Assembly: GCF_000521785.1 (NCBI RefSeq)
Contig: NZ_JALZ01000032.1
Coordinates: 1-32,729 of the forward strand
Length of the DNA stretch: 32,729 bases
Reading direction: 5' to 3'
Source: Roseivivax halodurans JCM 10272
Lineage (GTDB): Bacteria > Pseudomonadota > Alphaproteobacteria > Rhodobacterales > Rhodobacteraceae
Shown: positions 7,453 through 29,240 of the stretch, piece by piece
Position numbering within the stretch: the stretch's first letter is position 1
Layout: each line of letters opens with the position of its first letter
Notes under the pieces: model-generated
What the model was told of the DNA's origin: nothing
Database searches by the model: none
The model's input: the letters and a program-made list of their open reading frames with translations, nothing else
Made by a program: the position numbers and the translations under genes

Positions 7453-9053
7453 CAGGAAGCTCCGGTGGAGGTGGACCCGGTCAGCGCCGGGATGTCGGGC
7501 AGGCGGTTGAGAATATTTCCGACAATCAGATCAAGCGGCTGATAGTAGGTGTCGATTGCCCAGAGCCCCGCGGGGATGACCGCCGCGGCGACGATAACCG
7601 CACCCGCAATCAGGACACGCCGGCGGCGAATTTCTTCTTCGGTCCGCATGTAGGACAAGGTCGCGATCGGGGTGATGTCGAGTGCCTGCTGGATCTCTGA
7701 AGACCGGCGGACTGTGGTGTTCAGGAGTTCGAGCAGAAGGACGAGGCCAAGTCCCGCCATGAGCCCGCCGCCGAAGCCTGCGATGGCAACCACGCGGCGG
7801 TTAGGGCTGTTGGGGGCATCGGGGGCAATCGCGTTCTCGATCACCGAAATCCGCTGCCCCTTCGACAGGGCCTCGATTGTATCACCGGTCTCCGCGCGAG
7901 CACGGCTTTCAACAGCACGATCATATTGCTGGCGGACGTTTTCCAGGTCACGCTCGAGCCCGCTCAGGGTGATGGCATTGTTGGGTGTTGCTTGGATCGT
8001 GCGTTGCAGCTCCCCCATCGAGGTACCAAGCTCGGAGCGGCGCTCTTCGAGAAACTCGATCTGGTTGTCGATATCGGCAATCTGGACATCAAAAGCACTT
8101 GTTGCTTCGCCTTCAGCGGAAGCCTCCCCGTCGGTGGCCGCCCCGGACTGCGCCGCAACAACCTCTTCGAGCGCGTCGATCCGCTGGGTCAGGATCTGCA
8201 TCCGCGGATTCTGATCGCTCATCACCGCGGCGTTTGCGGCATATTCCTCGCGCAGGCCCTGCAGCCGGCGCGCCTCGGGGGTCATCTCCGCCTCGCTCTG
8301 CTGCAGCCCGATCGAGCCGGTCTCGGCGTAGAGCGTTTCAAGACTGCGCTTCCTGTCCCGCAACTGCTCGAGCTCCCGGTCGATTTCCGCCACACGCTCC
8401 TGCTGCGAGATCAGCTGGTTGCGGCGGAATTCGAGGCTCTCGGGCAGGGCATCGCGATTGTCCTCCTGGAACTGCGCGACCCGGGCACTGCGCTCCGCCA
8501 GCTCCTGATCGAGCCGATCGACCTCCTGTTGAAAGAAATCCAGGGTTTGGCCGGAGACCGTGGTGCGCATCTCGACATTTGCCTGCAGGATCTGGGAGAC
8601 AATCTCGTTCGCGACCAGGGCCGAGCGCTGCGCGTCGGAAGCCGAAAAACTCACATTCACCAGCGTCGCTTGTGGCTCGGCGCGCGGCCCGCCTCCGCCG
8701 CTGGTTTCGATCGAGATGCGTGCGCGCATATCCGTGACGATATCGTCAGGCGAGAGCGCTTCATCTTCCGCGGCGGTATAAAGATCGAACCGGTTGGCCA
8801 TGTCGAGCAGCCGATCACGCGCCAAGATCCGCTGACGGATGATCTGCAACTGCTCGATCGCCTCGGTGCGCACCGTGGAACTGGCAAGCTCGTCGGGGAT
8901 TTGCTGGCTTTCGACCACCAGCAATGCCTCCGAGACGTAGCGCGGGGGCAGGATCAGCGCGATCGTCACCCCGAGCACCGTTCCGAGGATGGTCAGCAGA
9001 ATGATATAATGAAGGCGCCGCAGCAGCAGCCGGGCGTAGAACCCCAAATCCAT
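7452..9053 (-). CDS. Wzz/GumC-type polysaccharide chain-length regulator
   Basis: Inner-membrane protein that sets chain length and couples the tyrosine kinase to the export machinery. The 533-residue protein has an N-terminal Wzz domain (FYARLLLRRLHYIILLTILG, first span about 14-38; then YVSEALLVVESQQIP), a long periplasmic coiled coil rich in Glu, Gln and Arg (about 165-350), and a second span near 405-425. The residues just before that span include Pro-rich APDAPNSPNRR, the usual Wzz signature. A further hydrophobic stretch near 480 (VLIAGAVIVAAAVIPAGLWAI) makes it somewhat longer than minimal Wzz. I chose the ATG at 9053 because the family begins there and it lies 4 bp after the upstream stop; the open frame upstream to 9146 overlaps the ATPase gene. 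Confidence 0.9.
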   Translation of the reverse strand: MDLGFYARLLLRRLHYIILLTILGTVLGVTIALILPPRYVSEALLVVESQQIPDELASSTVRTEAIEQLQIIRQRILARDRLLDMANRFDLYTAAEDEALSPDDIVTDMRARISIETSGGGGPRAEPQATLVNVSFSASDAQRSALVANEIVSQILQANVEMRTTVSGQTLDFFQQEVDRLDQELAERSARVAQFQEDNRDALPESLEFRRNQLISQQERVAEIDRELEQLRDRKRSLETLYAETGSIGLQQSEAEMTPEARRLQGLREEYAANAAVMSDQNPRMQILTQRIDALEEVVAAQSGAATDGEASAEGEATSAFDVQIADIDNQIEFLEERRSELGTSMGELQRTIQATPNNAITLSGLERDLENVRQQYDRAVESRARAETGDTIEALSKGQRISVIENAIAPDAPNSPNRRVVAIAGFGGGLMAGLGLVLLLELLNTTVRRSSEIQQALDITPIATLSYMRTEEEIRRRRVLIAGAVIVAAAVIPAGLWAIDTYYQPLDLIVGNILNRLPDIPALTGSTSTGAS

Positions 9054-9057
9054 CTCG

Positions 9058-9951
9058 TTATACCCGTCTTCGTGCGTCGAGCAGCAGAGGCCCGTCGGTT
9101 GTTGTGTCTGCAGCAGGTCGCTTCGGCGCGCCGACAAGCAACCCATCGGCGATCACCTGTTCTACGGTCTCGGCATCGACCACAGGACTGTCTGCAGAAA
9201 ACGCGTAAACCATAGCGATATCGCACAATTTGTTGACCAGACGCGGCACACCCTCCGTGGCGGTGTATACCGCCCTGCACGCTTCTGGCGTGAAGATCTC
9301 CGAGGTTGCGCCAGCCACCCGCAGCCGATGCGCGATGTAATCGGCCACGCCACCTGCGTCCATCGGCTTGAGATGGAAGTTCGCGGACACACGCTGCGCA
9401 AATTGGGTCAGGTCCGGAGCCGAGATGATCTCACGCAGTTCCGGCTGGCCGACGAGCACCAATTGCAGCAGCTCGTCCCGACCCGAGTTTATGTTGGTGA
9501 ACATCCTGAGCTCTTCGAGCGCCTCGCGACTGAGGTTCTGCGCTTCGTCGAAGATCAGAAGGACCCGTTTTCCCGCGGCGTATTGCTCAATGAGATAGGA
9601 TTGAAAGCGCGAAAAGAGATCGACATAGGTCTCGCCGGGCTCGGAGCGCTGGTCGAGCGCCAGCATTGCCCATCGCAGGATCTCACCCCGGTCGCCTTGC
9701 GTGTTGGCAACCATGCCGACCACCACATCATCCTCCACCGAGCGCAACAGATGGTGCAGCAGCGTGGTCTTGCCCGCTCCCACCTCGCCGGTGATGAGCG
9801 TGATCGGCGCCCGGGTCATCAGACCGTATTCCATCATCGCAAACGCTCCGCGATGGACCGGCCCCCAGTAAAGGAAGTCGGGATCGGGAACCAGCGAGAA
9901 GGGCCGCTCACGCAGGTTGAAGTGATCGATGTAGAAAGCGATGGTGGACAC
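9058..9951 (-). CDS. ExeA-like AAA ATPase of exosortase/EPS loci
   Basis: A 297-residue cytoplasmic P-loop ATPase of the kind found beside Wzz and BY-kinase genes in exosortase-linked polysaccharide loci (general-secretion-pathway protein A family). The N-terminal FNLRERPFSLVPDPDFLYWG block is the family signature. Walker A is GEVGAGKTT at 55-63, Walker B is LLIFDEAQNL at 131-140, and a sensor-type LVGQPEL follows. The role is not firmly known; it is thought to energise or regulate assembly of the export apparatus. It is the first gene of the leftward operon, and its stop is 4 bp from the Wzz start. Divergently placed from the sugar transferase. Confidence 0.9.
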   Translation of the reverse strand: MSTIAFYIDHFNLRERPFSLVPDPDFLYWGPVHRGAFAMMEYGLMTRAPITLITGEVGAGKTTLLHHLLRSVEDDVVVGMVANTQGDRGEILRWAMLALDQRSEPGETYVDLFSRFQSYLIEQYAAGKRVLLIFDEAQNLSREALEELRMFTNINSGRDELLQLVLVGQPELREIISAPDLTQFAQRVSANFHLKPMDAGGVADYIAHRLRVAGATSEIFTPEACRAVYTATEGVPRLVNKLCDIAMVYAFSADSPVVDAETVEQVIADGLLVGAPKRPAADTTTDGPLLLDARRRV

Positions 9952-10322
9952 TCGTCAACAAAGGAACAGGCATGGAGCCCGTGACACGGCCCCATAGCAT
10001 ATGAAGACTTCGGCGCGATAGCAAAACACCCAAACCCGGCCACCGCCGGCCCACAGAACTTTACCCGCGCAGCTCACCTTCGCCACAATTCCTCTCCGAG
10101 AAGTGGTCAATCGCCAGAGAGTTGTGGTGATTGAAGACCTTCAGGTAACGAACTCTCCTTAAACGTGAATCTTTCCCCGAAATGGAAGTAGATACTGTTC
10201 AACGCCCTCAAATTAAGGCAAGGCTGCCACAAGTTGGACATTTTTCGGCGGCGATTACATACCCCACGAGAGCTGCAGGTTCTGCGCCACAAGACCTCGT
10301 GTTTTTTAGGAGTCTCGTACCA
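9952..10322. promoter_or_regulatory. divergent promoter region of the two EPS units
   Basis: About 370 bp between the ATPase start and the likely sugar-transferase start, clearly richer in AT than the flanking genes. It must carry promoters in both directions. The seven-base word GCCACAA occurs three times on the plus strand (10082-10088, 10226-10232, 10286-10292), and TTGTGG, the complement of its core, occurs at 10122-10127. This suggests a repeated regulator site, but chance cannot be excluded. No clear sigma-70 or sigma-54 element was found by eye. Confidence 0.5.
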
Positions 10323-11024
10323 GTGTCTTTTTCCGATACGCCTTTACTTTTTAGACCATTAACGGGCTCTGAGAGCCTCTCCACTGCCATTGAGGTTCCG
10401 CCGGCCGGCTCGCGAGCCCGTCCCTATGCCCGCCGCTACAAACCGATGCTCGACATCAGCCTGGTCGTTCTGCTCCTGCCGATCGTCCTCCCGCTCCTGG
10501 TACTTTTGGCCGCCCTGGTGGCGCTCGACGGCGGCAACCCAATCTACTCGCAGAAACGCGTCGGCCGGGCAGGCCATGTCTTCCGGATCTGGAAGCTCCG
10601 GACGATGGTGCCCAACGCAGACATTCAGCTCGCAAAATATCTCGCCGAGAATCCCGAGGCGCGGGCCGAATGGGCGGTGAAGCAGAAGCTGACAAACGAT
10701 CCGCGCATCACAAAGGTCGGATGCATCCTGCGCAAGGCGTCGCTCGACGAGCTGCCGCAAATTTTCAATGTACTGACAGGCGACATGAGTCTCGTGGGAC
10801 CACGGCCGATGATGCCCGATCAGAAGCCGCTTTATCCGGGTCGCGCCTATTTTGTCCTGCGCCCGGGGATCACCGGCCCCTGGCAGGTCTCGGACCGCAA
10901 CATGACCAGCTTCGCCGCCCGCGCCCAATATGACACCGTCTACTACAAGTCGGTCTCCTTCATCGGCGATCTGCGCCTTCTTATGGCCACAATGCGCGTG
11001 GTTATGCGCGGTACAGGCTGTTGA
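10323..11024 (+). CDS. undecaprenyl-phosphate sugar phosphotransferase (polyprenyl glycosylphosphotransferase)
   Basis: Membrane enzyme that starts each repeat unit by moving a sugar-1-phosphate from UDP-sugar to undecaprenyl phosphate. It has the family's single hydrophobic segment (KPMLDISLVVLLLPIVLPLL) followed by the cytoplasmic catalytic domain: PIYSQKRVGRAGHVFRIWKL, then RTMVPNAD, DPRITKVGCILRKASLDELPQ, FNVLTGDMSLVGPRPM, and YFVLRPGITGPWQVSDRN. It lacks the long four-span N-terminal half of WbaP and ends in the usual VVMRGTGC. The frame extends to an ATG at 10182, but the extra 47 codons look non-family and AT-rich. The GTG at 10323 has AGGAG 10 nt upstream, so I prefer it; the start remains uncertain. 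First gene of the rightward unit. Confidence 0.88.
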   Translation: MSFSDTPLLFRPLTGSESLSTAIEVPPAGSRARPYARRYKPMLDISLVVLLLPIVLPLLVLLAALVALDGGNPIYSQKRVGRAGHVFRIWKLRTMVPNADIQLAKYLAENPEARAEWAVKQKLTNDPRITKVGCILRKASLDELPQIFNVLTGDMSLVGPRPMMPDQKPLYPGRAYFVLRPGITGPWQVSDRNMTSFAARAQYDTVYYKSVSFIGDLRLLMATMRVVMRGTGC

Positions 11025-11145
11025 TCTCGTCAGCGGCGGCGGTTGATCCCGCCGTCTCGGCTGACATCCCGGTCCAGATCAAGTAATCACCCCGTACTCA
11101 CGTGCTCCTTTCGCGGGCCATCCTTGCTGGAGAATACCCCCTCCC

Positions 11146-13575
11146 ATGCACCTTGTGCGCTCCATCCTGCTGCCTCTCGCGCTCGTTCTGGCCCTTGCCG
11201 CTTGCAAAAGCTCCGAAGAACGCGCGGAGGAATATTTCGAGACCGGGCTCGAACTGCGCGAGGCCGGTGACCTCGAGCGCGCCGCCCTCTCCTTCAGGAA
11301 CGTCTTTCGCTTCGACGGGGCCCACAAGGAGGCACGCACCAACCTCGCGGAGGTGCTGATCGAACAGGGCAACCCGAACGCCGCCTTCTCGCAATATCTG
11401 CGCCTCGCGGAACAATATCCCAACGATGTCGGCATCCGAATCGCACTCTCGGAGCTCGCCATTTCCCAGCAGGCCTGGAGTGAACTCGAGCGCCACGGCA
11501 ACGTCGCCATCGAAGCCGCCCCCGAACGGCCAGAGGTGCAAGCGATCGCGGCGATGATCGATTATGTCGAGGCCTCGCAAAACGACAGTGCCGGCGGGCG
11601 GCAGGACGCTGTGGAGCGCGCGAGAACGCTTCTGGAGACAGATCCGGATCTCACAAGCGCCCGCCAGCTGGTGATCTTTGGGTCAATCGAGGCAGGCGAG
11701 TTCGACGCCGCGCTCGACGCGATCAATACCGCCCTCGAGGCGGAGCCCGACGATCTCACGCTCAACACGCTGAAGCTGCAGGTGCTGAACACACTCGAGC
11801 GGCCTGACGAGGTCGAAGCGCTCTTGCAGGACATGTATGCCCGCTTTCCCGAGAACGAGGAAATCCGGCAGAACCTGATCGCCTGGTATCTCCAGCGCGA
11901 GGATCTCGGGGCAGTTGAAACGCTCCTGCGCGAGATCGCCGGGCCCCGCGATGCCGAAGGGGCGGTCGAGGATCACATCACACTTGTCCGCTTCCTCGCG
12001 CAGGCAGAGGGGGTCGAGGCCGCGCGCGCCGAGCTGAGCGAGTTGATTGAGGCCAGCGAGGGCAATACGGAGGCCGTCGACCGTTACGTCCTCCTCGACG
12101 CCGGCTTCGCCTTCGATTCGGGGGAGCAAACCGAAGCTGTCGATCGGTTGCAGGCACGCCTCGATGACGATGCAGAGACCCCCGTCACCAACGACATCCG
12201 CACCACGCTGGCGCAGATGCACCTCGTCACCGGCGACGAGGTGACCGCTCGTGCGCTGGTCGAAGAGACGCTGGCGGCTGACGAAAGTAATGTCGCCGCG
12301 CTGAAGATGCGCGCCGAATGGCAAATCGAGGCCGATGATCCGAACGAGGCGATCACCTCTCTGCGGACCGCGCTCGACCAAGCGCCAAACGATTCAGAGA
12401 TCCTGACGCTCATGGCCCGAGCCCATCTGCGTGCGGGCAGCACCCAGCTCGCCGGCGAGCGCCTGGCCCTTGCCGTGGACCTCTCTGAGAACGGCCCCGC
12501 CGAGACGCTGCGTTACGCCCGCTTCCTGCTGGACCAGAACCGGGAAGCCGCCGCGCGCTCACTGCTCGCCGAAGCAATTGACGCCAATCCCGGCAATCTC
12601 GATCTTCTGACCGAACAGGCGCGCCTGGCGTTGAGTCAGGACGATACCGCGACCGCCCGCACCGCAATTGCCGCGCTCGAACGTATCGACAGCCCCGAGG
12701 CAACCGACCGCGCCACAACGCTCAACGCAGCCCTCCTTCTGGGACAGCAACGCTTCGATGAGAGTGTGGCACTTCTGGAGGAACGCGCCGAAGGCGATGA
12801 TGCGCCTGGCGCCGTGGTGCTCGACGTGGTGCGTATCCGCCTCGAGGCGGGACAAGTTGCCGAGGCCCGGTCCTATCTCAGCACGCGCCTCGAAGAGCGC
12901 CCCGAGGATCCGACACTGCGCTTCGCAGAAGCGGTCCTGCAGATGGCCGCGGGCGAGACCGAGGAGGCCGAAAACGGCTTGCGCGAGCTGATCGAGGACT
13001 TTCCCGAAGCCCAGGCGCCGGTGCGTCTGCTCCACGGGCTTCTTGTCAGTGACGATCGCGAGGAGGAAGCGCGCGAGCTGCTCGCCGCCGCAGTGGAGCG
13101 CATGCCGGAGGCCCGTGAGCTACAGCTTATCCGCGCGAGCAATTTCGAGGCCGAGGGTGATCTCGAAAGCGCGCTCGACATTTACGAGACGCTTTACGAG
13201 CAGGAGAGCGACGACACGGTCGTGGCCAACAATTACGCAAGCCTCCTGAGCGATCTGCGCGAGGACGAGGAGAGTCTCGCACGCGCCGCGGATGTGGCCC
13301 GCCGCCTTGCGGATGCCGACGTGCCGGCCCTCCAGGACACCTATGGTTGGATCGCCTACCGGCAGGGCAATTTCGAGGAGGCGCTCTCCTATCTCGAACC
13401 CGCCGCGGAAGGGCTGCCCGATAATCCCGTGGTGCTCTACCATCTCGGCATGACCTATGCCGCCCTCGAGCGCTCCGAAGAGGCCCGGGAGACACTTCAG
13501 CGGGCCGTCGACGCTGCGGAGGGGCAATCACTGCCGCAGATCGACCAGGCGAGAGAAACACTGGAGGGGCTTTGA
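11146..13575 (+). CDS. large TPR lipoprotein, PrsT-like, of the exosortase/EPS system
   Basis: An 809-residue protein with a lipoprotein signal ending in LAAC at Cys20, so probably lipid-anchored in the periplasm. The rest is tetratricopeptide helices from about residue 25 to the end (for example the AEEYFETGLELREAGDLERA unit), with strongly acidic composition. Length, lipobox and neighbours match the PrsT-type TPR proteins of PEP-CTERM/exosortase loci, which are thought to act as scaffolds for polymer export. The start is the ATG at 11146, with GGAG about 12 nt upstream. It follows the sugar transferase by 121 bp. Several antisense frames across it are only shadows of its GC-rich codons. Confidence 0.88.
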   Translation: MHLVRSILLPLALVLALAACKSSEERAEEYFETGLELREAGDLERAALSFRNVFRFDGAHKEARTNLAEVLIEQGNPNAAFSQYLRLAEQYPNDVGIRIALSELAISQQAWSELERHGNVAIEAAPERPEVQAIAAMIDYVEASQNDSAGGRQDAVERARTLLETDPDLTSARQLVIFGSIEAGEFDAALDAINTALEAEPDDLTLNTLKLQVLNTLERPDEVEALLQDMYARFPENEEIRQNLIAWYLQREDLGAVETLLREIAGPRDAEGAVEDHITLVRFLAQAEGVEAARAELSELIEASEGNTEAVDRYVLLDAGFAFDSGEQTEAVDRLQARLDDDAETPVTNDIRTTLAQMHLVTGDEVTARALVEETLAADESNVAALKMRAEWQIEADDPNEAITSLRTALDQAPNDSEILTLMARAHLRAGSTQLAGERLALAVDLSENGPAETLRYARFLLDQNREAAARSLLAEAIDANPGNLDLLTEQARLALSQDDTATARTAIAALERIDSPEATDRATTLNAALLLGQQRFDESVALLEERAEGDDAPGAVVLDVVRIRLEAGQVAEARSYLSTRLEERPEDPTLRFAEAVLQMAAGETEEAENGLRELIEDFPEAQAPVRLLHGLLVSDDREEEARELLAAAVERMPEARELQLIRASNFEAEGDLESALDIYETLYEQESDDTVVANNYASLLSDLREDEESLARAADVARRLADADVPALQDTYGWIAYRQGNFEEALSYLEPAAEGLPDNPVVLYHLGMTYAALERSEEARETLQRAVDAAEGQSLPQIDQARETLEGL

Positions 13576-13726
13576 CCCCTCCCTTTCCGTGACCCGCGAG
13601 GCACATTCTCCAGCAGAACTGCATCCTTCGGCGGCAAGACAAGCGATCCCCCCTGCCCCGCGAAGTGCGGGGCCGTTACGCTGCGCCAAAGTTCTCCTTC
13701 GAACACGTCATCGGGATACCGAAAAA

Positions 13727-14347
13727 ATGCTTAGCCATATCAGACAGCTTCTCGTCGTGCTTGCGGCGCTCCTCGGGGCCACCGCGGCCCACGCGCAGGG
13801 CTATCAGGTACAGCCCGGCGACGTGTTGCGCGTCGAGGTGCTTCAGGACGACAGCCTCAACCGCAACGTCCTCGTCGCTCCGGATGGCAGCATCAATTTC
13901 CCGCTTGCAGGGTCGCTGCGCGCCGGGGGCCGCACGATCGGCGCCATCCAGACCGATCTCGTCACCCGGCTGGAGCCCAATTTCTCGACCCGTCCCACCG
14001 TGTTCGTTTCGCTCGAGCAGCTCGCCGAGCGTGACCCTCCGCAGCCAACACTTCCGCAGGAGGATCCGGTCGTCGCAATCTTCGCCATGGGCGAGGTCGC
14101 CAATGCGGGCCGCATCGAGCTTGTGCCCGGAACGCGGCTCCTGCAGGCGCTCGCGCAACTCGGTGGCTTCACCGATTTCGCCGCCAAGAAGCGGCTGCAG
14201 CTGCGCCGCTACGACCCGAGCCTGGGGCGCGAGAGGATCTATCCGCTGAACTATGATGCCATTATGTCAGGCCGCAGCCCCAACGGCACTGTCCTCATGC
14301 AGGAAGGCGACGTCATCCTCGTGCCGACCAGGACCCTGTTCGAATAA
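13727..14347 (+). CDS. Wza-type polysaccharide export protein (short form)
   Basis: A 206-residue secreted protein with a signal peptide (1-23, cleavage after AHA). It has a Poly_export domain (GYQVQPGDVLRVEVLQDDSLN, then VLVAPDGSINFPLAGSL) and an SLBB-like domain (VAIFAMGEVANAGRIELVPG, then LLQALAQLGGFTDFA). It ends soon after EGDVILVP, so it lacks the C-terminal membrane-spanning helix of E. coli Wza and is about half its length. It has no lipobox Cys. It probably forms a periplasmic ring and relies on the neighbouring beta-barrel for outer-membrane passage. The ATG at 13727 starts the signal peptide; the longer upstream frame overlaps the TPR gene. Confidence 0.88.
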   Translation: MLSHIRQLLVVLAALLGATAAHAQGYQVQPGDVLRVEVLQDDSLNRNVLVAPDGSINFPLAGSLRAGGRTIGAIQTDLVTRLEPNFSTRPTVFVSLEQLAERDPPQPTLPQEDPVVAIFAMGEVANAGRIELVPGTRLLQALAQLGGFTDFAAKKRLQLRRYDPSLGRERIYPLNYDAIMSGRSPNGTVLMQEGDVILVPTRTLFE

Positions 14348-14371
14348 TTCCCGAAAGGGATCTCACCACGT

Positions 14372-15679
14372 ATGCTTCGCACCCTTTTCCTCCCGCTCGG
14401 CGCCGCAACCACCGCGTCGCTGATCCTCGGCCTGCCCGTTCTGGCGCAGGAGCGGACGCCGGACGGGCGGCTTCTGACCCTGGGCCTGACGACCGGGATC
14501 ACCGCCTCGGACAATGTCGATCTTGACCCGGAGCCGACAGAAGAGGTCGAGGCAACAACCTCGCTCTCGCTGGGGCTCCTGTCGGCGACCCCGACGCAGC
14601 GCTTCGAGCTCGGCACAAGCGCAGGTCTGCGCGCGCTCTTGGTCGGAGACGAGGACGAGGATAGCTTCGCGCTCGACGACCCGAACGGCAGGTTCCTCTA
14701 CACCCGTAGCTCACGCGCCGCGAAGCTGTCGCTGGAGGGCAGGTTCGACAGCCGGGAAATCACCTCACTTACCCCCCTGGAGCTGACCAGCGAGGATCTG
14801 GCGGACCTTGAGGATCTCCAGGACCTCGAGGATCTGATTGCGGCCAATCAGGTGCCGCGTGATGCGCGCCGGCTGACCTTCGATCTGGACGCCGCGCTCG
14901 AGACCCGGCGCGATAGCCCCTTCGGGATCACCTATTCGGTAGGCGTCTCCGGCGAGCGCTACAGCGACGCCCCCGAAGCCTTCGAGGAGGAAACCCGGGC
15001 CTCTGCCGGGCTCGGCCTGCGCTTCGATCTTGACGAGATCACCCGGGCCACGACCGATCTCCGCTTCGTAACCAGCAACGACCCGGAAGAAGAGGATCGT
15101 TTCTCGCTCGATCTCGGTCTCACCCGCACAATCGGGACCGATCAGGTCGGGGCGTCTTTCGGAATCGTCGAGAACGGCGATGCAACCCGGCTCAGCCTCT
15201 CGGCCAATGCCGCACGTGACTTCTCAACCGGCAGCGTCAGCGGGTCACTGGGCGTGACCCGCGCTGACAGCGGCAACCTTGCGCTGACCGGCTCGCTCGG
15301 GCTCACTCGCGAGCTTTCGCCCACCCAGGACGTGAGCGTCGACCTCTCGCGGCGCGTGATCCGGCTCGACGGTCTCGAGGAAGGTGAGCCCGACCGCGAG
15401 CGCGCCGTCTCGAGCCTCAGTGCCGATTACAGCCAGGCCGTCACCCGCCTCTGGCGCTTCGGCCTCGATGCGGAACTGACGCAGGCCGACGTGATCGAAG
15501 GGCCCGGCGGGAGTGACAGCTTCGGTCGGATCGGTGCAGACCTCTCGCGCCCGCTCACCGAGGATTGGCGCCTTTCCATGGGTGTCAGCCACCGGTTCGA
15601 GGAAAATGCCGATGGCACCGATGCCACCAGCAACACCGTCTCGGTCTCGCTGAACCGATCCTTCCGGATCTCCTATTGA
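14372..15679 (+). CDS. outer-membrane beta-barrel protein of the EPS locus
   Basis: A 435-residue protein with a signal peptide (about 1-26, cleavage near VLAQ) and then alternating hydrophobic/polar strands ending in a terminal aromatic (SFRISY), the classic outer-membrane barrel signature. It most likely provides the outer-membrane pore or anchor for the exopolysaccharide, as the barrel proteins of XrtA-type loci do. An odd acidic block, EDLADLEDLQDLEDL, lies near residues 141-155, probably in a periplasmic or extracellular loop. It starts 25 bp after the Wza-type gene, and its stop overlaps the rhomboid start. Exact family membership is not certain from sequence alone. Confidence 0.8.
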   Translation: MLRTLFLPLGAATTASLILGLPVLAQERTPDGRLLTLGLTTGITASDNVDLDPEPTEEVEATTSLSLGLLSATPTQRFELGTSAGLRALLVGDEDEDSFALDDPNGRFLYTRSSRAAKLSLEGRFDSREITSLTPLELTSEDLADLEDLQDLEDLIAANQVPRDARRLTFDLDAALETRRDSPFGITYSVGVSGERYSDAPEAFEEETRASAGLGLRFDLDEITRATTDLRFVTSNDPEEEDRFSLDLGLTRTIGTDQVGASFGIVENGDATRLSLSANAARDFSTGSVSGSLGVTRADSGNLALTGSLGLTRELSPTQDVSVDLSRRVIRLDGLEEGEPDRERAVSSLSADYSQAVTRLWRFGLDAELTQADVIEGPGGSDSFGRIGADLSRPLTEDWRLSMGVSHRFEENADGTDATSNTVSVSLNRSFRISY

Positions 15680-21020: not shown

Positions 21021-22280
21021 ATGGCGCGCATATCCATTCATACCTTGCGGCTCCACGTCGTCCTCCTCGCCGTCCTGACCCTGCTGGTCCTGCCCGCCGC
21101 GACCGAGACCGCCTTTACCGCACAGCACTTGAAACAGCGTTTTTCAGCCGCCGAGCCCGACTCGGTAATTCGGCTCGGGGCAGGCCTGCACGGGGCTGCG
21201 GTACTAAAGGGCGGGGGCGGCGCGCCAGGGCGCCCCGTGACCATCACCTCTGCCGATCCGGCCGACCCCGCGCGCCTTGTCGGGTTGCACCTGCAGGACG
21301 TGGCGCATGTGGTCTTCGAGGACATCGTGCTCGACTACGTCTTCCGCCCCGGCGACGACATCAAGGCGCGCCCGTTTCGCGTCAGCGCCGGCCGCGACGT
21401 CACTTTCCGCCGGGTGATCTTCGACGGCGATCTTGCACGCGGGATGGACGCAACAGCGAACGGCTTTCCGGCAGGCTTCGGGCTGAGTGTTGACGGCGCC
21501 GACGGCATCGTGGTGGAAGACAGTGAGGTCCGCGGCTTCTGGCGCGGCCTGTCCATGCGCGAAAGCCGTGGCATCGACATTCGCGGCAACGATCTGCACA
21601 GCCTGCGCATGGATGGCATGAACTTTGCCCAGATTAAGGACCTGGTGATCGAGCGCAACCGTATCCGCGATTTCGACCGCTCGCCCGACTCCGCCGACCA
21701 TGCCGACATGATCCAGTTCTGGACGGCGCATACCACCGAGCCGTCGCGGAACATCATCATCCGCGGCAACCTGATGAATTCGGGCGATGGCTTCTGGACC
21801 CAGTCCATATTCATGCGCAACGATCAGGTCGATACAGGACAGGCCGGTCAGGAGATGTACTGGCGCGATGTGACGATTGAGGACAACCTGATCATCAACG
21901 CCCATGCCCACGCTATCGTGCTCGGCGCAAGCTTAGGCGCGCGGATCTCGAACAACACGCTGGTACACAACCCCGGTTCGGACGGTGATCGCAACAGCCT
22001 TGCGATGTACCGTCCTCTTCTCACTGTCTCGCCTCTGTCGCGCGATGTGGTGATCGAGGGCAACATTGCCAACGAGTTCAGGCTTCCCGAGACGCTCCCC
22101 AAAAGCTGGACAGTGCGTGACAATCTCGCCGTGCAGGACATCGCCCGGATGCAGCCCGTTCATTATTCGACAGTCTTTGTCGGCGGAGACCCCGCCGATC
22201 CGGCGGCCTATCGCCCCCTTCCCGGCGGCGTCCTCGACGGCGCGGCACTCGGCGCACCGCTTGAGCCATGGCTACGCTAA
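21021..22280 (+). CDS. secreted right-handed beta-helix protein, candidate polysaccharide lyase/epimerase
   Basis: A 419-residue protein with an N-terminal signal (hydrophobic 11-27, likely cleavage around PAATETA). From about residue 45 it is a parallel beta-helix with repeating ladder units (VTFRRVIFDGDL, GIVVEDSEVRGF, GIDIRGNDLHSL, LVIERNRIRDF, IIIRGNLMNS, VTIEDNLIINA). Conserved unusual blocks are DHADMIQFW near 230 and VDTGQAGQEMYWRD near 272-285; both recur in the larger protein at 25508-28273. Such folds commonly cut or epimerise acidic polysaccharides, so a polymer-processing role in the periplasm is likely but unproven. The last 13 bases overlap the polymerase gene. Confidence 0.82.
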   Translation: MARISIHTLRLHVVLLAVLTLLVLPAATETAFTAQHLKQRFSAAEPDSVIRLGAGLHGAAVLKGGGGAPGRPVTITSADPADPARLVGLHLQDVAHVVFEDIVLDYVFRPGDDIKARPFRVSAGRDVTFRRVIFDGDLARGMDATANGFPAGFGLSVDGADGIVVEDSEVRGFWRGLSMRESRGIDIRGNDLHSLRMDGMNFAQIKDLVIERNRIRDFDRSPDSADHADMIQFWTAHTTEPSRNIIIRGNLMNSGDGFWTQSIFMRNDQVDTGQAGQEMYWRDVTIEDNLIINAHAHAIVLGASLGARISNNTLVHNPGSDGDRNSLAMYRPLLTVSPLSRDVVIEGNIANEFRLPETLPKSWTVRDNLAVQDIARMQPVHYSTVFVGGDPADPAAYRPLPGGVLDGAALGAPLEPWLR

Positions 22281-23626
22281 GCCGGTCAACATTCGACGAC
22301 GTGGCGGACCCTCCCCTTTCGCCGGTCTTCGTTCTGGTCTTCCTGTCGCTAGTGTTTCAGGTCTCCTTCGAGATCAGCTCGCTCTACATGACGGTGTCGC
22401 GTTTGCTGCTTCTGGTGCTGACGCCGATACTGCTGGTGAAGTTCCTCTCTGGCCGGTTCGGAAAGATCCTGACGACAGACTGGCTCGTCTTCGGCTTCCT
22501 GTTCTGGTTCTCGATCAGCACGCTGAAGAACAATACGGCGGTCTTTCTGACCTTCGCAGGCTCCAACATGCTAATCCTGCTGGGCGGATATCTCATGGGC
22601 CGGGCCTATATCCGCGGACCGCGGGCGTTTCGGCAGATGATCTATCTATACGGGAGCGTGGTCGTACTGACCCTGCCTCTGGCCATCCACGAGACGATCA
22701 CCAGCACCATGAGTCTGGCCCGGATGATCGACCAGGTCCCCGGCATCTCCGCCAGCATCGACGTCGACTACCCGCAGCGGCGCGGGCTCTACCGAGTGCA
22801 GGTCACCTTCCCTCACCCGATCCATTACGGGCTCTTCTGCACGATCTGCTTTGCGATGGTCGTAGTCGGGCTCAAGGATCGCATCACGACTGCCCTGCGC
22901 TGGCTCTGGGGCGGAGCCATAGCGCTGTGCTGTTTCCTGTCGGTATCCAGCGGCCCTCTCATGGGCATTATGGCGCAGATAGGGCTGATCTTTTACGCCT
23001 TCGTCACGCGCGGCGCAAAGCGACCCTGGATCTGGCTTCTGCGGTTCAGCATCGTGGGCTACGTCCTGCTTGATCTCGCCTCGACGCGCCCGGCCTATTA
23101 CGCCGTTGCCGAACGGCTCGCCTTTTCGTCGGGAACCGCCTACGCGCGCAAGCTGATCCTCGAGTTCGGTACCCAGCAGATCGCTCGCACGCCGATCTTT
23201 GGGTACGGCGCAGGCAAGCGCATACCATTGCCGCACTGGATGACGGGGAGTATGGACAACCACTGGCTCCTGCTCGCCGTGGTCTACGGCGTGCCAGCCT
23301 TTGCCCTGCTGTTCGGCGCCTATGTCTACACGATCTGGAAATCGGGCCGCGCCGGGCACGAAGCCGATCCGGAAACGCGCCACTTGCAGCTCGGCTGGTC
23401 GATCGCGACCGTCGGCATCATGCTGACGATCGCAACCGTTGCCATCTGGTCGGAGATTGCCACGCTGATCTTCGTTGCGTTCGGGGCCGGGGTCTGGATG
23501 GTCGTTCCACGCGACAACACCGCTCCCCCGGTTGAAACAAAAGAAGCCGCAGGCCGCCGCGGCCTGCGTTACACCCGGTTTCCCGCCAGAACCGCAAGCA
23601 TCGCGACGCGCACGCGATCGGCCTGA
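22268..23626 (+). CDS. Wzy-type O-antigen polymerase/ligase family protein
   Basis: A 452-residue membrane protein with about 11-12 spans, consistent with a polymerase that joins repeat units on the periplasmic side. The family is poorly conserved; evidence is the span pattern, the large periplasmic loop between later spans (about 265-340) and the motif FGYGAGKRIP followed by DNHWLLLAVVYG, typical of the O-antigen ligase/Wzy Pfam group (His and Gly of the N-H-x-x-L-x-x-x-x-x-G kind). It overlaps the beta-helix gene by 13 bp, implying coupling. The basic Arg/Thr-rich C-terminal tail is cytoplasmic. It is the only Wzy candidate in the window. Confidence 0.82.
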   Translation: MATLSRSTFDDVADPPLSPVFVLVFLSLVFQVSFEISSLYMTVSRLLLLVLTPILLVKFLSGRFGKILTTDWLVFGFLFWFSISTLKNNTAVFLTFAGSNMLILLGGYLMGRAYIRGPRAFRQMIYLYGSVVVLTLPLAIHETITSTMSLARMIDQVPGISASIDVDYPQRRGLYRVQVTFPHPIHYGLFCTICFAMVVVGLKDRITTALRWLWGGAIALCCFLSVSSGPLMGIMAQIGLIFYAFVTRGAKRPWIWLLRFSIVGYVLLDLASTRPAYYAVAERLAFSSGTAYARKLILEFGTQQIARTPIFGYGAGKRIPLPHWMTGSMDNHWLLLAVVYGVPAFALLFGAYVYTIWKSGRAGHEADPETRHLQLGWSIATVGIMLTIATVAIWSEIATLIFVAFGAGVWMVVPRDNTAPPVETKEAAGRRGLRYTRFPARTASIATRTRSA

Positions 23627-23646
23627 CAAATCAGGAACTCGCCGAA

Positions 23647-24726
23647 ATGGACAGCAACCCCGTCGCCGCTCAGAAAAAGCGCTCCTCTCTTCTGGATTGC
23701 ATTCGCGCCCTGGCAGTCATCATGGTCGTGCTTTATCATATCGGGCTGCAGGCGGGCTCCGGGCTCGACCCGGTGGCCACCTGGTTCCTCCAGTACGGGC
23801 TTCTTGGGGTCGACATTTTCTTTCCGCTAAGTGGGTATCTGATTACCAGTTACCTGCTCACCCACCATAACAAACGCGACGTCGGCGTCTTCTTCATGCG
23901 TCGGTTCTTCCGTATCGTGCCGCTCTACATGGCTGCCTTGGCGATCTATGCTTTGGGTAGCATTGTCACACGGACAAACCTCGACACGTTGCACAATCTC
24001 TGGCAGAATGCAGTCTTCCTGACGGGCTGGGTGATCTTCCACGGTGACCGGGCAGAAGTGCCGTATACCATCACCTGGTCTCTCTCGGTCGAGGAATTCT
24101 CTTACATCATTCTCGGCCTCGCGGCGCTGATCCTGCGGGGAAGAATCGGTCGCATCCTGATCGCCATGACCGTGGGAGCGCTGGCCCTTCGGTTCGCGAT
24201 CAACCTAGCCGGCTTCCCAAATGTCTATTTCTATCCACCCGCGCGGCTCGATTCCGTCGCGCTTGGCGGTGCGGTCGCGTGGGCGCTGCACGCCCGATGC
24301 AAGATTCTGATCCCGCTCCTCGTCACGACTGTCGCTACTTGGGGGCTGATGCAGTTCGGCCGCGTGCCGTTTCACACGCTGCTATTTCTGCTCATCACTC
24401 TCATGGCCTGTCTGGTGATCTACATCATCGTGGTCTACCTGCCGTCGATGCGCACACCACTCATCTCCGCCGTGGCGGCGATCGGGTTCTACTCTTATTT
24501 CATCTACCTGTTCCACTACTTCAACATAGTCGTCCTAGAAGTAATCCAAGAGCGATTTGGCATGGGACTGTCCTTCTGGCCGCAATCGGTTCTGGTCCTT
24601 GCGATGACCTACTTCCAGGCTTGGCTGTCCTACCGGTTCTTCGAGGGACCGCTCATAGGGTTCGGACGCCGTCTCGAAACTAAACTCGGTCCGCGTCCCG
24701 CGCCAACGTCGGCAGAAGCGTACTAA
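23647..24726 (+). CDS. acyltransferase 3 family protein (OafA/YrhL-like)
   Basis: A 359-residue membrane protein with about ten spans that probably adds acyl (acetyl or succinyl) groups to the exopolysaccharide from the periplasmic face. Family motifs are in order: LDCIRALAVIMVVLYH near the N-terminus (the R-x-x-A...H pattern), VDIFFPLSGYLIT, FFMRRFFRIVPLY, and WSLSVEEFSYI with the conserved Glu pair. It lacks the SGNH domain some members have. It starts 20 bp after the polymerase stop, so it is in the same transcript. With the two hexapeptide enzymes this makes three potential acylation activities in the locus. Confidence 0.88.
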   Translation: MDSNPVAAQKKRSSLLDCIRALAVIMVVLYHIGLQAGSGLDPVATWFLQYGLLGVDIFFPLSGYLITSYLLTHHNKRDVGVFFMRRFFRIVPLYMAALAIYALGSIVTRTNLDTLHNLWQNAVFLTGWVIFHGDRAEVPYTITWSLSVEEFSYIILGLAALILRGRIGRILIAMTVGALALRFAINLAGFPNVYFYPPARLDSVALGGAVAWALHARCKILIPLLVTTVATWGLMQFGRVPFHTLLFLLITLMACLVIYIIVVYLPSMRTPLISAVAAIGFYSYFIYLFHYFNIVVLEVIQERFGMGLSFWPQSVLVLAMTYFQAWLSYRFFEGPLIGFGRRLETKLGPRPAPTSAEAY

Positions 24727-25507
24727 AAGGAATAGCCCCGCGAGCGGTCGCTGGGACCGGGATCGAGAGGGATGGTCCGGCGGACATGCGTCAAGGCCGG
24801 ACGCCCCCGCCACTCCGAATAATAGGGGCAACCAGTCGCGCTATGACGGGAATATGCGTTTTTCCGCTCATCCCAACCCTAGAGATTCATGTCACGGGTC
24901 CTGCATGCTAACGCAGACCCATGACAATACCAGCCCTACCAAGTTGCGAGACCGATACGCGGGCAGCCCCCGATAGCTTACCAAGGCGGTGGTGCGCCGC
25001 ACCGTCCTATACGCCTTCTGGCGTGGCTTAAATGCCCGCCAGCGCAAGGTGGCCATCATAAGCGACGACACCCAGCCTCGCAACTCGGACGTCAGAACCC
25101 CATCGCCCCTTACCTGCATTCAACGCCGGAGCACAGCCTTCCGCGGTAGCTGGCCCGTCGCGGTGCTCATGGGACCGCTCTGCCCCGCGCAGCGGCCGCG
25201 CGCAGATCGCCATATTGCCGGCATGATAATCGACCAGCAAGCACTCTAAAAATGTATCCAAGAATAAGAAAATACTGCCTTATGAGAGTTGGCTAAACAG
25301 AAGAAATTTATAGGGGGTGCCTTTAGAGTAAATTTCTCCAACTAAATTTGGATTATTGCCATACATAGGCGTGCTGGCTCCCACGCCAGACTCTCTGGAG
25401 AGCCTTCTAAAAGAACTTATTTCACCGCATCTTTGCCGCAGACTTCACCAAATAAAGCCACAACCGCGACTCAACGTCTGAATCAAGCTGCCTTTGAGGG
25501 ACAAGAA
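24727..25507. other. intergenic region with AT-rich leader of the large beta-helix gene
   Basis: About 780 bp without a gene I can support. The first 500 bp are GC-rich with several short open frames of no recognisable family. From about 25245 to 25440 the sequence becomes markedly AT-rich, typical of a promoter or long leader. Two small hairpins sit at 25374-25389 (CTGGC/GCCAG) and 25391-25402 (CTCTC/GAGAG), about 105-135 nt before the ATG. The frame from 25433 (TTG) is open into the gene, but the first family-like sequence follows the ATG at 25508. Confidence 0.4.
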
Positions 25508-28273
25508 ATGTACGATCATATCAGCGTCAACGATACGGACGACCTCTTGAACGCCCTCGCATCCGCCAAAGGCGGAGAGACAATTGTTCTCTCTGGCGGA
25601 AATTATGGAGAAATGAGGCTCAAATCTGGCCTCAATATGTCCTTGAACTTCCCGGAGACCGTTACCATCAGGTCAGCCGACCCTGAAAATCCTGCCATTT
25701 TCAATATGATGAACGTCCAAGGCGCGTCGAATATCACTTTCGATGGGATTGTGTTCGATTATAAATTCTCGGAGAGAGACCCGGTCTGGACCGCTCCATT
25801 TGGAGTTTATGATAGCAACGGGATAACCTTTCGTAATTCTATCTTCGATGGAGACCTAGCAGCAGGCGTGTCGCCCGAATCCGATAGCCACGGCTACGGA
25901 TCCGGCCTGATTGTTCGCAATTCCGAGAATGTGACTCTCGAAAACAACGAAGTCTACGATTTCTGGAAAGGCTTCAAGATCCGAGAGAGTGAGGGCATCA
26001 CTATACGCGACAATGACATCCACTCCATGAGAGTGGACGGCATAAACTTCGTCGATGTGCAAGGCCTTTTGATCGAAGGAAACCATATTCACGATTTCCA
26101 CTCCATTCCCGGGGATCACGCCGACATGATTCAGGGTTGGAACGTGGGAACCGATACGCCGTCGAGTCATGTGACCATTCGCGACAATCGACTGGATATC
26201 GGCGCGGGCGACCCTACACATTCAATTTTCCTGCGCAACTATCTCGTCGACACCGGACAGGCCGGCAAGGAGATGTATTGGCGCGACATCGCCATCGAGA
26301 ACAACATGATCTCGAACGGTCATGGCCACGGCATCACGGTGGGCGCGAGCATCGGGTTGTCTATAAGCAAGAATACGGTGTTGCGTGCCGACGGGGCCGA
26401 GGCGGACACATCGGGTGAGGCCGTCGGGATCCCGCGGATTTCGGTTGCACCGCAATCTCGGAACGTGATGATCGAGCGCAATGTGACCTCCGAAATTCTC
26501 GCCGGCGGCTCGCTTGAGGGATGGAGTGTCGCGGACAATCTGCTCGTTCAGGATCAGATGGCCGATGCCGACAATCATTACAGCATGGTGTTCGTCAGCA
26601 GTACGCTGGACTCGCGCGACTTCCAGCTCCTGTCGGGTGCCTCGGTCGGCTCGACCATGTCGTCCGGCGACGGTCCGAGGTACCACGCCTCGCCTGACGC
26701 CGAGAATTTGGCTGCCATGCATTTCGATGCCACCTACAGCACTTTGGGCGGAGCGCCGCTGCCGACGGGTACCGAATATTTCTGGACCTTCGGTGACGGC
26801 ACCACGGCCACGGGCGCGGTTGCCCATCACGTCTTCAACGACCGCGGCACCTACACTGTCGGATTGTCGGTCCAGCTGCCTGACGGGCGCAGCTGGGCTG
26901 TCGAGCATGAGCACGCAGTAAGCGGGCCCGAACTCGCGGTCTACGACGGCAGCATCCTGAAAATCGCGTTGGACAGCGGGATAATCGCCACCGATCCCGC
27001 CGGGCACGGAACCGACGGTATCGATCTTGACACCCAAGGGGCTGCCCTGACGATCCCCCGCGACGCTCTTCCGCCCCTGTTCGGAGCGGAGGAATTCGCT
27101 CTGGCGATTGAGGTGAACCTTGATGCGGCCGGAGGTACGCTGTTCCGCCTAGGCCACGACCTGAACGCCTATTTCACCGAAGATGGCGAGTTGATAGTCA
27201 AAGTTGTCACCGATGCGGGGGCGGCGGCACTGGACAGCAGTGGGGTCTCTCTTGCTGACGGGGCGTCCCATTCCATCGCGCTGGAGCTCAAGGATGGCCT
27301 CCTATCGCTGTTGATCGACGGAACGAAAGCTGACTCTGCGCGTCTCGACGGGACACTTGCTAGCAGCCGCTTCGATTTTACTCTGGGCTCGCCCTGGCAC
27401 ACCAATGCCGATGGCATCGTCTCGGCCTTCTCGCTCACCACCCAGGAAAGCGCCTACGACTTCGGGGCGACGCCGCTCGAAACCATAGGAGCCGACGCCG
27501 CTCCGGAGACCAGCGAGACGCAAAACATAACGAGACCGAACGAGACCGCTCTGGAAGACGAAGCTTCGATCATGCCGTCTGAAAACATGGACACGGGCTC
27601 TTCCGAGATCGGCTGGAAGGACGCGCTCGCGACCTCGATGCCAGATGAGAAGACTTGGCAGCAGGTTCTGGACTTCGACACAGAATCGGCCTTCATCGCG
27701 TATTCCGAAGGAGGCCCCCGACAACTCGATACCGGGACGGTTGACAGGGGAGTTGGGCTAGAGCTCGGCGGCCCTGGAATCTCCAGCCAGATTTCCTACG
27801 ATCTTATCAAGGACATGATGGAAGCCGATGCGTTTCACCTATCGATGGAAGTGCGCTCGGAGGACGACGACAGCAGCGGGGACCTCGTCCATTTCAGCGG
27901 TGTATTCTCAGTGTATATCAAGTCGGACGGGAACCTGATGATACGCATCCTCGACGAGGATGGCATCGTTTCGCGACACAGCACGGGAGAACTGGACCTG
28001 AGCGACACGGAAACGCAGGAGATCGAAATACTCTATTTCGATCGGACGCTTGCAGTGGAGGTCAACGGCGAGATGGAGATCGAGATGCTCATCGAGGCCG
28101 GCCTAGCGAGTGGCAATTCAGCCGGCGCCTTCTTCGGAAACCCGTGGGGGAGGGAGAATTTCGACGGAGTGCTGGAAGATCTCGATGCCCATTTCCTAGC
28201 AGCCGATCCCAGCCTCCTGCGCGACGACGCCGTCGGCATGGAGATTTCCGGCCAAGATCTCTTCGGAATCTGA
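25508..28273 (+). CDS. multidomain beta-helix/PKD/lectin-like protein, candidate extracellular polysaccharide-processing enzyme
   Basis: A 921-residue protein. Residues about 1-370 form a parallel beta-helix clearly paralogous to the protein at 21021-22280: same order of ladder units, a DHADMIQGW block and VDTGQAGKEMYWRD. Residues about 395-485 are a PKD-like domain (YFWTFGDGTTATGAVAHHVF, then DRGTYTVGLSV). Two lectin/LamG-like domains follow (about 490-645 and 715-895), joined by an acidic Ser/Thr/Glu-rich linker. No N-terminal signal peptide is visible, so a type I-type C-terminal signal is possible; the last residues (GQDLFGI) do not settle this. No RTX repeats. The ATG at 25508 is behind GAGGGA about 7 nt upstream. 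A binding and cutting role on the exported polymer is the best guess. Confidence 0.78.
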   Translation: MYDHISVNDTDDLLNALASAKGGETIVLSGGNYGEMRLKSGLNMSLNFPETVTIRSADPENPAIFNMMNVQGASNITFDGIVFDYKFSERDPVWTAPFGVYDSNGITFRNSIFDGDLAAGVSPESDSHGYGSGLIVRNSENVTLENNEVYDFWKGFKIRESEGITIRDNDIHSMRVDGINFVDVQGLLIEGNHIHDFHSIPGDHADMIQGWNVGTDTPSSHVTIRDNRLDIGAGDPTHSIFLRNYLVDTGQAGKEMYWRDIAIENNMISNGHGHGITVGASIGLSISKNTVLRADGAEADTSGEAVGIPRISVAPQSRNVMIERNVTSEILAGGSLEGWSVADNLLVQDQMADADNHYSMVFVSSTLDSRDFQLLSGASVGSTMSSGDGPRYHASPDAENLAAMHFDATYSTLGGAPLPTGTEYFWTFGDGTTATGAVAHHVFNDRGTYTVGLSVQLPDGRSWAVEHEHAVSGPELAVYDGSILKIALDSGIIATDPAGHGTDGIDLDTQGAALTIPRDALPPLFGAEEFALAIEVNLDAAGGTLFRLGHDLNAYFTEDGELIVKVVTDAGAAALDSSGVSLADGASHSIALELKDGLLSLLIDGTKADSARLDGTLASSRFDFTLGSPWHTNADGIVSAFSLTTQESAYDFGATPLETIGADAAPETSETQNITRPNETALEDEASIMPSENMDTGSSEIGWKDALATSMPDEKTWQQVLDFDTESAFIAYSEGGPRQLDTGTVDRGVGLELGGPGISSQISYDLIKDMMEADAFHLSMEVRSEDDDSSGDLVHFSGVFSVYIKSDGNLMIRILDEDGIVSRHSTGELDLSDTETQEIEILYFDRTLAVEVNGEMEIEMLIEAGLASGNSAGAFFGNPWGRENFDGVLEDLDAHFLAADPSLLRDDAVGMEISGQDLFGI

Positions 28274-28667: not shown

Positions 28668-29240
28668 TCAGGCCGCCTTGCGGCGACGGCGGGACGCAAC
28701 GCCAAGCGCACCGAGGCCACCGATCAGCAGAAGACCACCTGCGGGCAGCGGGACCGCCGCCACAGTGAAGGCTGCGAGGTCGTAACCGTCACCGGTCCGG
28801 TTACCCGGCACGATCGTGGTGTCGGTGAAGCGGATGGCATCGAAGCTGCCCGCAAAGTTGATCGTCGAAACCGCGCTGGTGTTGCTCACCGAACCAAGGA
28901 GTTCAAACATCCCGGTACTGGTGTTGCGACCAAACACGTCAGCGGTTTCGGTGTAGTAGCGCTCACGACCGTTGGTCACTTCGAGCGCGGTCAGCGGACC
29001 GGTGAAGTTCGGAGCAATCTCGAACTCTGCGGTGCCACCGAGCCCGAGCGAAAAAAAGTCATTTCCCACGCTCTCACCGAGCTCAACCACGCTGAGATCG
29101 CGGCGGTCATCGGTTCCGCAGGTTACGCTGGTGCCACTGCCCAGTTCGCAATCTGCGGTTCTGTTTGTGATCGTCAGCGCACTGGCCGCGCTGCTCATCG
29201 CAACCGTCGTCACAGCGGCCATCAAAAGCTTATTAAGCAT
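28668..29240 (-). CDS. VPLPA-CTERM sorting-domain protein
   Basis: A 190-residue exported protein, the probable XrtD substrate. It has a signal peptide (1-21, SAASA then L), a beta-rich middle resembling PEP-CTERM-type secreted proteins, and a C-terminal tail at 163-190 consisting of VPLPAGG, a hydrophobic segment (LLLIGGLGALGVA) and a basic end (SRRRRKAA). This tripartite tail is the defining VPLPA-CTERM signal. Two Cys near 31 and 41 could form a disulfide. The ATG at 29240 has AGGA about 8 nt upstream, and a terminator follows the stop. It is a single-gene unit, and its job after sorting (structural matrix or surface protein) is unknown. Confidence 0.9.
   Translation of the reverse strand: MLNKLLMAAVTTVAMSSAASALTITNRTADCELGSGTSVTCGTDDRRDLSVVELGESVGNDFFSLGLGGTAEFEIAPNFTGPLTALEVTNGRERYYTETADVFGRNTSTGMFELLGSVSNTSAVSTINFAGSFDAIRFTDTTIVPGNRTGDGYDLAAFTVAAVPLPAGGLLLIGGLGALGVASRRRRKAA

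Follow-up and report, generated by a model that had tools for sequence, protein, structure and literature searches.

The exopolysaccharide (EPS) locus on contig NZ_JALZ01000032.1 of Roseivivax halodurans JCM 10272 encodes two paralogous right-handed beta-helix proteins, P0001 and P0002, whose genes stand on either side of those for a Wzy/O-antigen-ligase-like membrane protein (P0003) and an acyltransferase (P0004). The window analyzed here is the entire contig of 32,729 bases within a genome of 4.49 Mb; it holds both an XrtD exosortase and a VPLPA-CTERM substrate, recognized by NCBIfam match, and is an XrtD exopolysaccharide locus. We propose, with confidence that is evenly balanced, that P0001 and P0002 are a pair of polysaccharide depolymerases acting in two compartments on the locus's own exopolysaccharide. 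The proposal draws on the division of the wider family into two forms, which differ in N-terminus and gene neighborhood, and on a set of residues kept in both.

The two beta-helix proteins

P0001 and P0002 are identical at 154 of 374 positions (41%; BLASTP E 4e-89). A search of the whole genome with P0001 at E <= 1e-3 matched two places only, P0001 and P0002 themselves, and revealed no third copy; the likeness is therefore not one of generic beta-helix similarity. An earlier note, made from the letters of this DNA alone, had described a paralogous pair flanking polymerase and acyltransferase genes and sharing the blocks DHADMIQ(F/G)W and VDTGQAG(Q/K)EMYWRD, and both the pair and the blocks are present as it stated. 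The difference in architecture that it drew also holds: P0001 is short, with a hydrophobic segment at its N-terminus, whereas P0002 has matches to PKD and laminin-G domains and no hydrophobic N-terminal segment, whether read from the TTG at 25433 or the ATG at 25508. The ATG, which is preceded by GAGGGACAAGAA and gives a protein of 921 aa, is probably the start rather than the TTG.

Structural models were obtained for both proteins (mean predicted local distance difference test score, pLDDT, 95.2 for P0001 from 90 sequences and 84.9 for P0002 from 31). The P0002 model comprises a beta-helix, a PKD domain and two LamG-like domains, with low-confidence linkers; its laminin-G Pfam matches are to PF02210 (1.7e-6) and PF13385 (2.7e-6), and laminin LG domains and tailspikes are at the top of its Foldseek list.

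Two forms with different N-termini and neighbors

To the two window proteins were added 88/89 homologous open reading frames (ORFs) from 70 loci, and the resulting 90 rows were aligned and treed. The P0001 group contains 46 rows and the P0002 group 38; six rows (L129_1125, L141_1138, L121_617, L100_472, L111_442 and L113_442) fall outside the group counts. An N-terminus was scored as hydrophobic where a 12-residue Kyte-Doolittle mean reached at least 1.6 before the core, a heuristic and not a SignalP prediction. By this measure a hydrophobic stretch precedes the core in 46/46 rows of the P0001 group versus 1/38 of the P0002 group, nine rows of the latter having too few residues ahead of the core for the measure.

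The gene neighborhoods divide in the same manner. At loci with enough flank, a Wzy-like gene follows on the same strand within 2.6 kb in 38 of 40 cases for the P0001 group versus 3 of 33 for the P0002 group. Type I secretion genes, defined as an HlyD gene within 4 kb or an ABC gene within 6.5 kb upstream on the same strand, are found at 0/32 loci of the P0001 group versus 15/33 of the P0002 group: 11 of the 15 have both ABC and HlyD genes and four an ABC-type gene alone. This label takes in ABC exporters found with an iterated profile, which makes the assignment less certain at the four loci where an ABC-type gene stands by itself. C-terminal tails longer than 150 aa occur in 34/36 proteins of the P0002 group but also in 21/45 of the P0001 group, and so are not specific to the secreted (P0002) form.

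These sequence features give good support to a division into one form that has a Sec-type N-terminus and sits next to the polymerase gene, and another that has no such signal. For P0002 of R. halodurans a type I route may be suspected: other contigs of the genome encode ABC transporters 41% and 39% identical to the type I ABC protein of Pseudorhodobacter turbinis. On the P. turbinis plasmid (L072, 28783-30047) the clade A gene occupies two separate ORFs beside an O-antigen ligase gene, and may be broken or misread.

Age of the duplication

The 66 contigs with counted rows include 15 with both forms (the window among them), 31 with the P0001 form only and 20 with the P0002 form only. A 30-row tree was built from the 15 contigs carrying both, with one extra clade B row, L082, excluded. 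Clades A and B separate in this tree at 100/99, and an arrangement in which the window proteins are sisters – a recent local duplication – is rejected (approximately unbiased test, p 0.00028). The same test on the 90-row quick tree did not reject that arrangement (p 0.103), although its log-likelihood was 33.9 lower. P0001 and P0002 thus most likely represent two old lineages rather than local duplicates. Where the earlier note pictured a duplication that had split into a periplasmic and an extracellular enzyme, the forms with and without a signal stand, and a duplication at this locus is not supported.

Conserved residues on the beta-helix

In the P0001 model R196-x-D198, H227-x-D229-x-x-Q232, Q261 and H295-x-H297 occupy matching places on successive PB1 strands. 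By register these residues would line one groove; the placement was made by eye from the register, from the strands that DSSP assigns to the model and from how the rungs are spaced, not from measured distances.

Conservation was examined in three sets of sequences. Since the 90-row set was partly chosen with a pattern containing H-x-D-x-x-Q, its 90/90 conservation is biased. A set of 58 rows, which shares genomes with it, was chosen by whole-domain similarity without any motif; a further 50 rows were found by profile and kept on whole-domain similarity, 48 of them coming from other genomes. Both of these sets contain the two window proteins. H227, D229, Q232 and D198 are present in 90/90 rows of the first set, with R196 in 84, Q261 in 86 and H295 and H297 in 85 each. 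In the 58 rows H227, D229 and Q232 are kept in all and D198 in 56. Among the 50 rows H227 and D229 are again found in every one, Q232 in 47 (the other 3 have H) and R196 in 43, while position 198 is D in 41 and E in 6. H227 and D229 are therefore invariant across all three sets. The groove residues are kept in both groups and in both window proteins, P0002 having H at the position of Q261. An asparagine ladder (N213, N250, N289, N312, N348 and N368) is complete in 90/90 rows.

The earlier note had taken the shared blocks as possible marks of an active site and looked to invariant acidic, histidine and lysine residues. Conserved residues on successive PB1 strands agree with the first idea, as far as a groove placed by eye and by register allows; of the residues, the histidine and acidic kinds were found (H227 and D229) and a conserved lysine was not, the best Lys column being 16/90 rows.

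In three of the 50 distant relatives (L181/L214, L183 and L159) the motif reads H-x-D-x-x-H instead of H-x-D-x-x-Q, and position 198 is not acidic; these perhaps have a different activity.

Comparison with known enzyme families

For the beta-helix of the window proteins, Pfam and NCBIfam yield no match above cut-off other than to generic beta-helix models. The Foldseek figures for the P0001 fold come from the 50 of 394 matches that were listed. In these, GH136, tailspike, PL6, chondroitinase B, AlgE, AlgG and RbmB rank close together, with template modeling (TM) scores of up to 0.54 by query length and up to 0.63 by target, so that none of these families stands apart, PL6 and AlgG, two of those suggested for comparison, included. 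By profile the best PDB match is the PL6 enzyme AlyGC, with a whole-chain E of 2.5e-13 that is summed over weak stretches (best stretch 21.7 bits, 7e-4) and a similarity lying chiefly in the N-terminal cap and first rungs. PsAly follows at 2.4e-6, mostly through the N-terminal cap, and there are weak matches to AlgE-type sequences and to a cell wall surface anchor protein.

With PL6 (AlyGC, BcAlyPL6, chondroitinase B) the window proteins have in common a right-handed parallel beta-helix and an asparagine ladder. In PL6, according to the part of the source available (PMC6879350), the catalytic residues are a conserved Lys and Arg; here an Arg is found (R196, 84/90) but no conserved Lys. The PL6 model PF14592 matches neither P0001 nor P0002 at E <= 1. 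It matches 10 of the 90 relatives at E <= 0.01 (best 3e-5) and, of eight sphingomonad-type relatives, L222 passes (26.3 against 24 bits, over residues 20-54 only) and L217 remains below cut-off. In 149 genomes of the order no PF14592 match was found at E <= 1e-20, and controls were equally silent, so that this result is uninformative alone. Membership in PL6 was rejected on the absence of a PF14592 match in the window proteins and of a conserved catalytic Lys.

AlgG and AlgE are likewise beta-helix enzymes, one placed in a periplasmic export complex and the others secreted, and AlgG is described in the accessible text as using a catalytic His and Arg (PMC4444821). The DPHD motif given there for AlgG/AlgE is found in neither P0001 nor P0002, and its one occurrence among the 90 rows lies away from the groove, at P0001 position 390; P0002, moreover, has PKD and LamG domains and no RTX match. 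PsAly (PDB 6kfn) resembles P0001 as a beta-helix both by Foldseek and by profile, and differs in its site of Tyr184 and Lys221, as reported in the portion of the paper at hand (PMC6796002), there being no conserved Lys column here. A further beta-helix match in the Foldseek list is RbmB of Vibrio cholerae (PDB 9ozl), which the source, available in part, presents as a depolymerase of a matrix polymer. The top match, GH136 LnbX, has an E of 1.6e-7 and yet a TM score of 0.51-0.54 and a root-mean-square deviation (rmsd) of about 9 A. The residues conserved in this family equal none of the PL6, AlgG and PsAly sets.

Alginate is made by a synthase and not by a Wzy polymerase. Rhizobial EPS glycanases of the ExsH/PlyA type are secreted by the type I route and shorten the producer's own EPS; they are not known to share a fold or family with P0001 and P0002.

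WelR and the relatives in sphingomonads

The best functional lead is WelR, the welan gum 'lyase' of Sphingomonas sp. WG (KTF67430.1, 675 aa). In the part of its description available (PMC7899989) it has no signal peptide, PbH1 repeats at 99-264 and Laminin_G_3 at 421-570, was modeled on AlyGC, and is encoded by a gene predicted in the wel cluster; in vitro it lowered the viscosity of welan, liquefied it and released reducing ends. P0002, compared by that description, shows the same order of no signal peptide, beta-helix and LamG, and differs in having a PKD domain and a second LamG domain; the same portion of the paper describes no periplasmic partner. None of the ORFs searched fitted a residue pattern drawn from that paper, and searches of plasmids were likewise without WelR.

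The layout of WelR also bears on the suggestion that the family is undescribed. The matches to generic models alone favor that suggestion, and a literature search at the level of titles and abstracts, with subscription papers largely outside its scope, found no description of the family; with WelR reported to have the same layout, the claim is doubtful.

Relatives in Novosphingobium and in Sphingomonadaceae-type genomes are located among EPS genes. In Novosphingobium ES2-1 one locus combines two family members with XrtV, a type I ABC gene and HlyD; the annotated beta-1,4-glucuronosyltransferase WelK and UDP-glucose dehydrogenase of this locus point to a uronate-containing polymer. A class-level search for XrtV gave one below-cut-off match in 142 genomes. 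We annotated 22 stretches, 20 of about 20 kb or less and two of the Novosphingobium plasmid. Five of them (L167, L212, L213, L215 and L226) contain an XrtV-like exosortase and five (L207, L219, L223, L225 and L167) a WelK-like protein at >=55%; no stretch has the two together except L167 and, if a WelK at 39% is counted, L226. HlyD and ABC genes are present in L166, L210, L223 and L225. RTX-type tails are frequent among the sphingomonad-type relatives, and L226 has PKD and LamG domains.

Proposed function and alternatives

Under the depolymerase proposal, the Sec route would take P0001 to the periplasm, where it would act on the chain made by the Wzy-like polymerase whose gene comes next, either trimming that chain or removing chains that have gone astray. 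P0002 would reach the outside without a Sec signal, its relatives pointing to type I secretion as the most likely route, and there would cut the released polymer while its PKD and LamG domains keep hold of it. That both act on the same polymer is presumed because both genes share one locus. The cut would be made in the PB1 groove by R196, D/E198, H227, D229 and Q232, and lyase chemistry (beta-elimination at a uronic acid) seems somewhat more likely than hydrolysis. What we infer from the comparisons above is how the proteins are exported here, what they act on, that they cut it, and by which chemistry.

A number of observations weigh against this proposal. In the P0002 group, L105_936 passes the hydrophobicity cut-off and L080_772 lies narrowly below it (1.59). 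By the criterion used, type I genes are lacking upstream at 18/33 testable loci of the P0002 group, and there are none within this window. In the 50 distant rows H295 is kept in 5 and position 297 is H in 23 or N in 20, which leaves the site not fully fixed. The lack of a conserved lysine counts here as well, since PL6 and PsAly use Lys, and the listed Foldseek matches are weak over the whole fold (rmsd mostly 8-12 A). The likeness of WelR to P0002 is one of reported layout, and so is no proof of membership; its assay, moreover, measured viscosity and dinitrosalicylic acid (DNS) reducing ends, with 235 nm unmentioned in the part of the paper available (PMC7899989).

Hydrolysis is the chemical rival to the lyase and at the same time a functional sub-case of the depolymerase reading, with which its probability overlaps. 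The proteins would be glycoside hydrolases with D/E198 and D229 as acid pair, which we consider unlikely. The acids lie on neighboring PB1 strands and are well kept in the 50 distant rows, the best Foldseek match is the hydrolase LnbX, and reducing ends were what the WelR assay measured. The TM score and rmsd of LnbX do not, however, amount to a family match, and LnbX is described, in the portion of the source available, with a pocket, unlike enzymes that act on polymers; elimination or epimerization would fit better with a His that is invariant and with the uronate setting of certain relatives.

Somewhat less probable again is that the pair are polymer-level C5-epimerases, a Wzy-pathway counterpart of AlgG/AlgE in which H227 would be the base and R196 the charge neutralizer. 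The two-compartment layout resembles that of AlgG in its export complex and secreted AlgE, His and Arg have these very jobs in AlgG (PMC4444821, seen in part), and the weak matches by sequence and by fold include AlgE6 and AlgE4. RTX-type tails, found in some sphingomonad relatives, are also carried by AlgE. Against epimerization stand the absence of DPHD from the window proteins, its single occurrence in the 90 rows being far from the groove, and the invariant D229 with near-invariant D/E198, which fit hydrolases equally; WelR, if related, shortens its polymer. We know of no polymer-level uronate C5-epimerase for a Wzy-made exopolysaccharide, though no search aimed at one was made.

Non-catalytic binding or assembly proteins, such as adhesins or export guides, would account for the LamG and PKD tails, the beta-helix adhesin PfbA in the Foldseek list and the surface anchor protein among the profile matches, but are very improbable given strictly conserved charged residues on successive strands in both groups, which would be typical of a catalytic site.

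A bolder reading, to which we would give little credence, is of a lysine-free R-x-D/E...H-x-D-x-x-Q beta-helix family that edits Wzy-made exopolysaccharides by means of a polymerase-coupled periplasmic form and a type I-secreted form; with C5-epimerization as its chemistry, it would supply a polymer-level uronate epimerase for such a polymer. If the depolymerase proposal is true, a group of Alphaproteobacteria has an inbuilt means of editing its own biofilm polymer in two steps, one of them next to the polymerase and the other extracellular; the cutting residues and the export route of each copy are then clearly predicted. Were WelR a member, a depolymerase of the industrial sphingan welan would join a family spanning Rhodobacterales, Sphingomonadaceae and others. 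Anti-biofilm tools and the tuning of gum viscosity are possible uses.

Distribution and linkage to XrtD

Among 390 genomes of the order, P0001 has a match in 48 at E <= 1e-3 and in 38 at E <= 1e-10. XrtD is present in 37 of the 38 strong-match genomes versus 110 of the 390 overall (Fisher p 8e-22, kinship ignored), the sole strong-match genome without it being G230. A family member and XrtD share a contig in 29 of the 37 and lie within 60 kb in 27; in G325 the XrtD-linked copy is the weaker of two. XrtD is also found in 7 of the 10 genomes with weak matches only, and 73 of the 110 XrtD genomes have no strong family match.

The family was found on 13 plasmid records with P0001 as query and on 14 with P0002. 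The member adjoins an O-antigen ligase family gene on Roseobacter litoralis pRLO149_63, in Loktanella salsilacus and in P. turbinis; in the stretch examined around the member on D. shibae pDSHI04 no O-antigen ligase gene is annotated. A scan of named genomes gave at least 70 loci (80 of 91 confirmed stretches), mainly in Rhodobacterales, with some in unplaced metagenome-assembled genomes and in Nitrincola. In a class-wide draw 8/385 genomes match at E <= 1e-10, the organism's own included, and 55/392 genomes match in a family taken as Sphingomonadaceae because the GlmS of its genome G401 is 74% similar to that of Novosphingobium.

Very long relatives (L168, L169 and L171; one ORF of 2051 aa) have the beta-helix far from the N-terminus and other EPS genes near. 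In three Sphingomonadaceae-type sequences (L218, L191 and L183, from G839, G906 and G995) each open frame has two tandem profile matches, and some members may contain two beta-helix units.

Layout of the locus

Coordinates are collected in Table 1. P0001 and P0003 overlap by 13 bases. P0003 has no Pfam match at E <= 1 and is 35-38% identical to four annotated O-antigen ligase proteins. The P. turbinis plasmid has the same export-core gene set, matched and annotated there.

Table 1. Features of the window, with the beta-helix genes and their parts first
Feature	Coordinates	Strand	Basis and remarks
P0001, clade A right-handed beta-helix protein	21021..22280	+	419 aa, hydrophobic N-terminus
P0001 groove block	21606..21716	+	R196, D198; one rung on H227, D229, Q232; register by eye
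P0002, clade B long paralogue	25433..28273	+	open frame from TTG 25433
P0002 groove block	26030..26134	+	R200, D202, H229, D231, Q234 (numbering from TTG)
P0002 beta-helix domain	25508..26692	+	model residues 1-395, boundary by eye
P0002 PKD domain	26717..26899	+	PF18911 1.8e-12, residues 429-489
P0002 first LamG-like domain	26945..27442	+	Pfam and model, boundary by eye
P0002 second LamG-like domain	27614..28198	+	after low-confidence linker; model, boundary by eye; tail repeats
P0003, Wzy/O-antigen-ligase-like membrane protein	22268..23626	+	directly downstream of P0001
P0004, acyltransferase (Acyl_transf_3)	23647..24726	+	PF01757, 2.2e-17
XrtD, VPLPA-CTERM-specific exosortase, C-terminal EpsI-type domain	4759..6345	-	TIGR04152 682 bits; TIGR02914
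VPLPA-CTERM sorted protein	28668..29240	-	TIGR03370
EPS export core: CpsD-type kinase, Wzz, AAA ATPase, sugar transferase, PrsT-like TPR, Wza-like export protein	6634..15679		
One further outer-membrane type protein	within 6634..15679		assigned by eye

Two features elsewhere in the window were noted by eye. Short frames overlap at 19390-20463, where the ending of a minus-strand ORF (19610-20188) resembles a fragment of a GT4-type glycosyltransferase; a broken glycosyltransferase gene may lie here. Close to the contig end a phasin-like protein is encoded on the minus strand (31193-31882).

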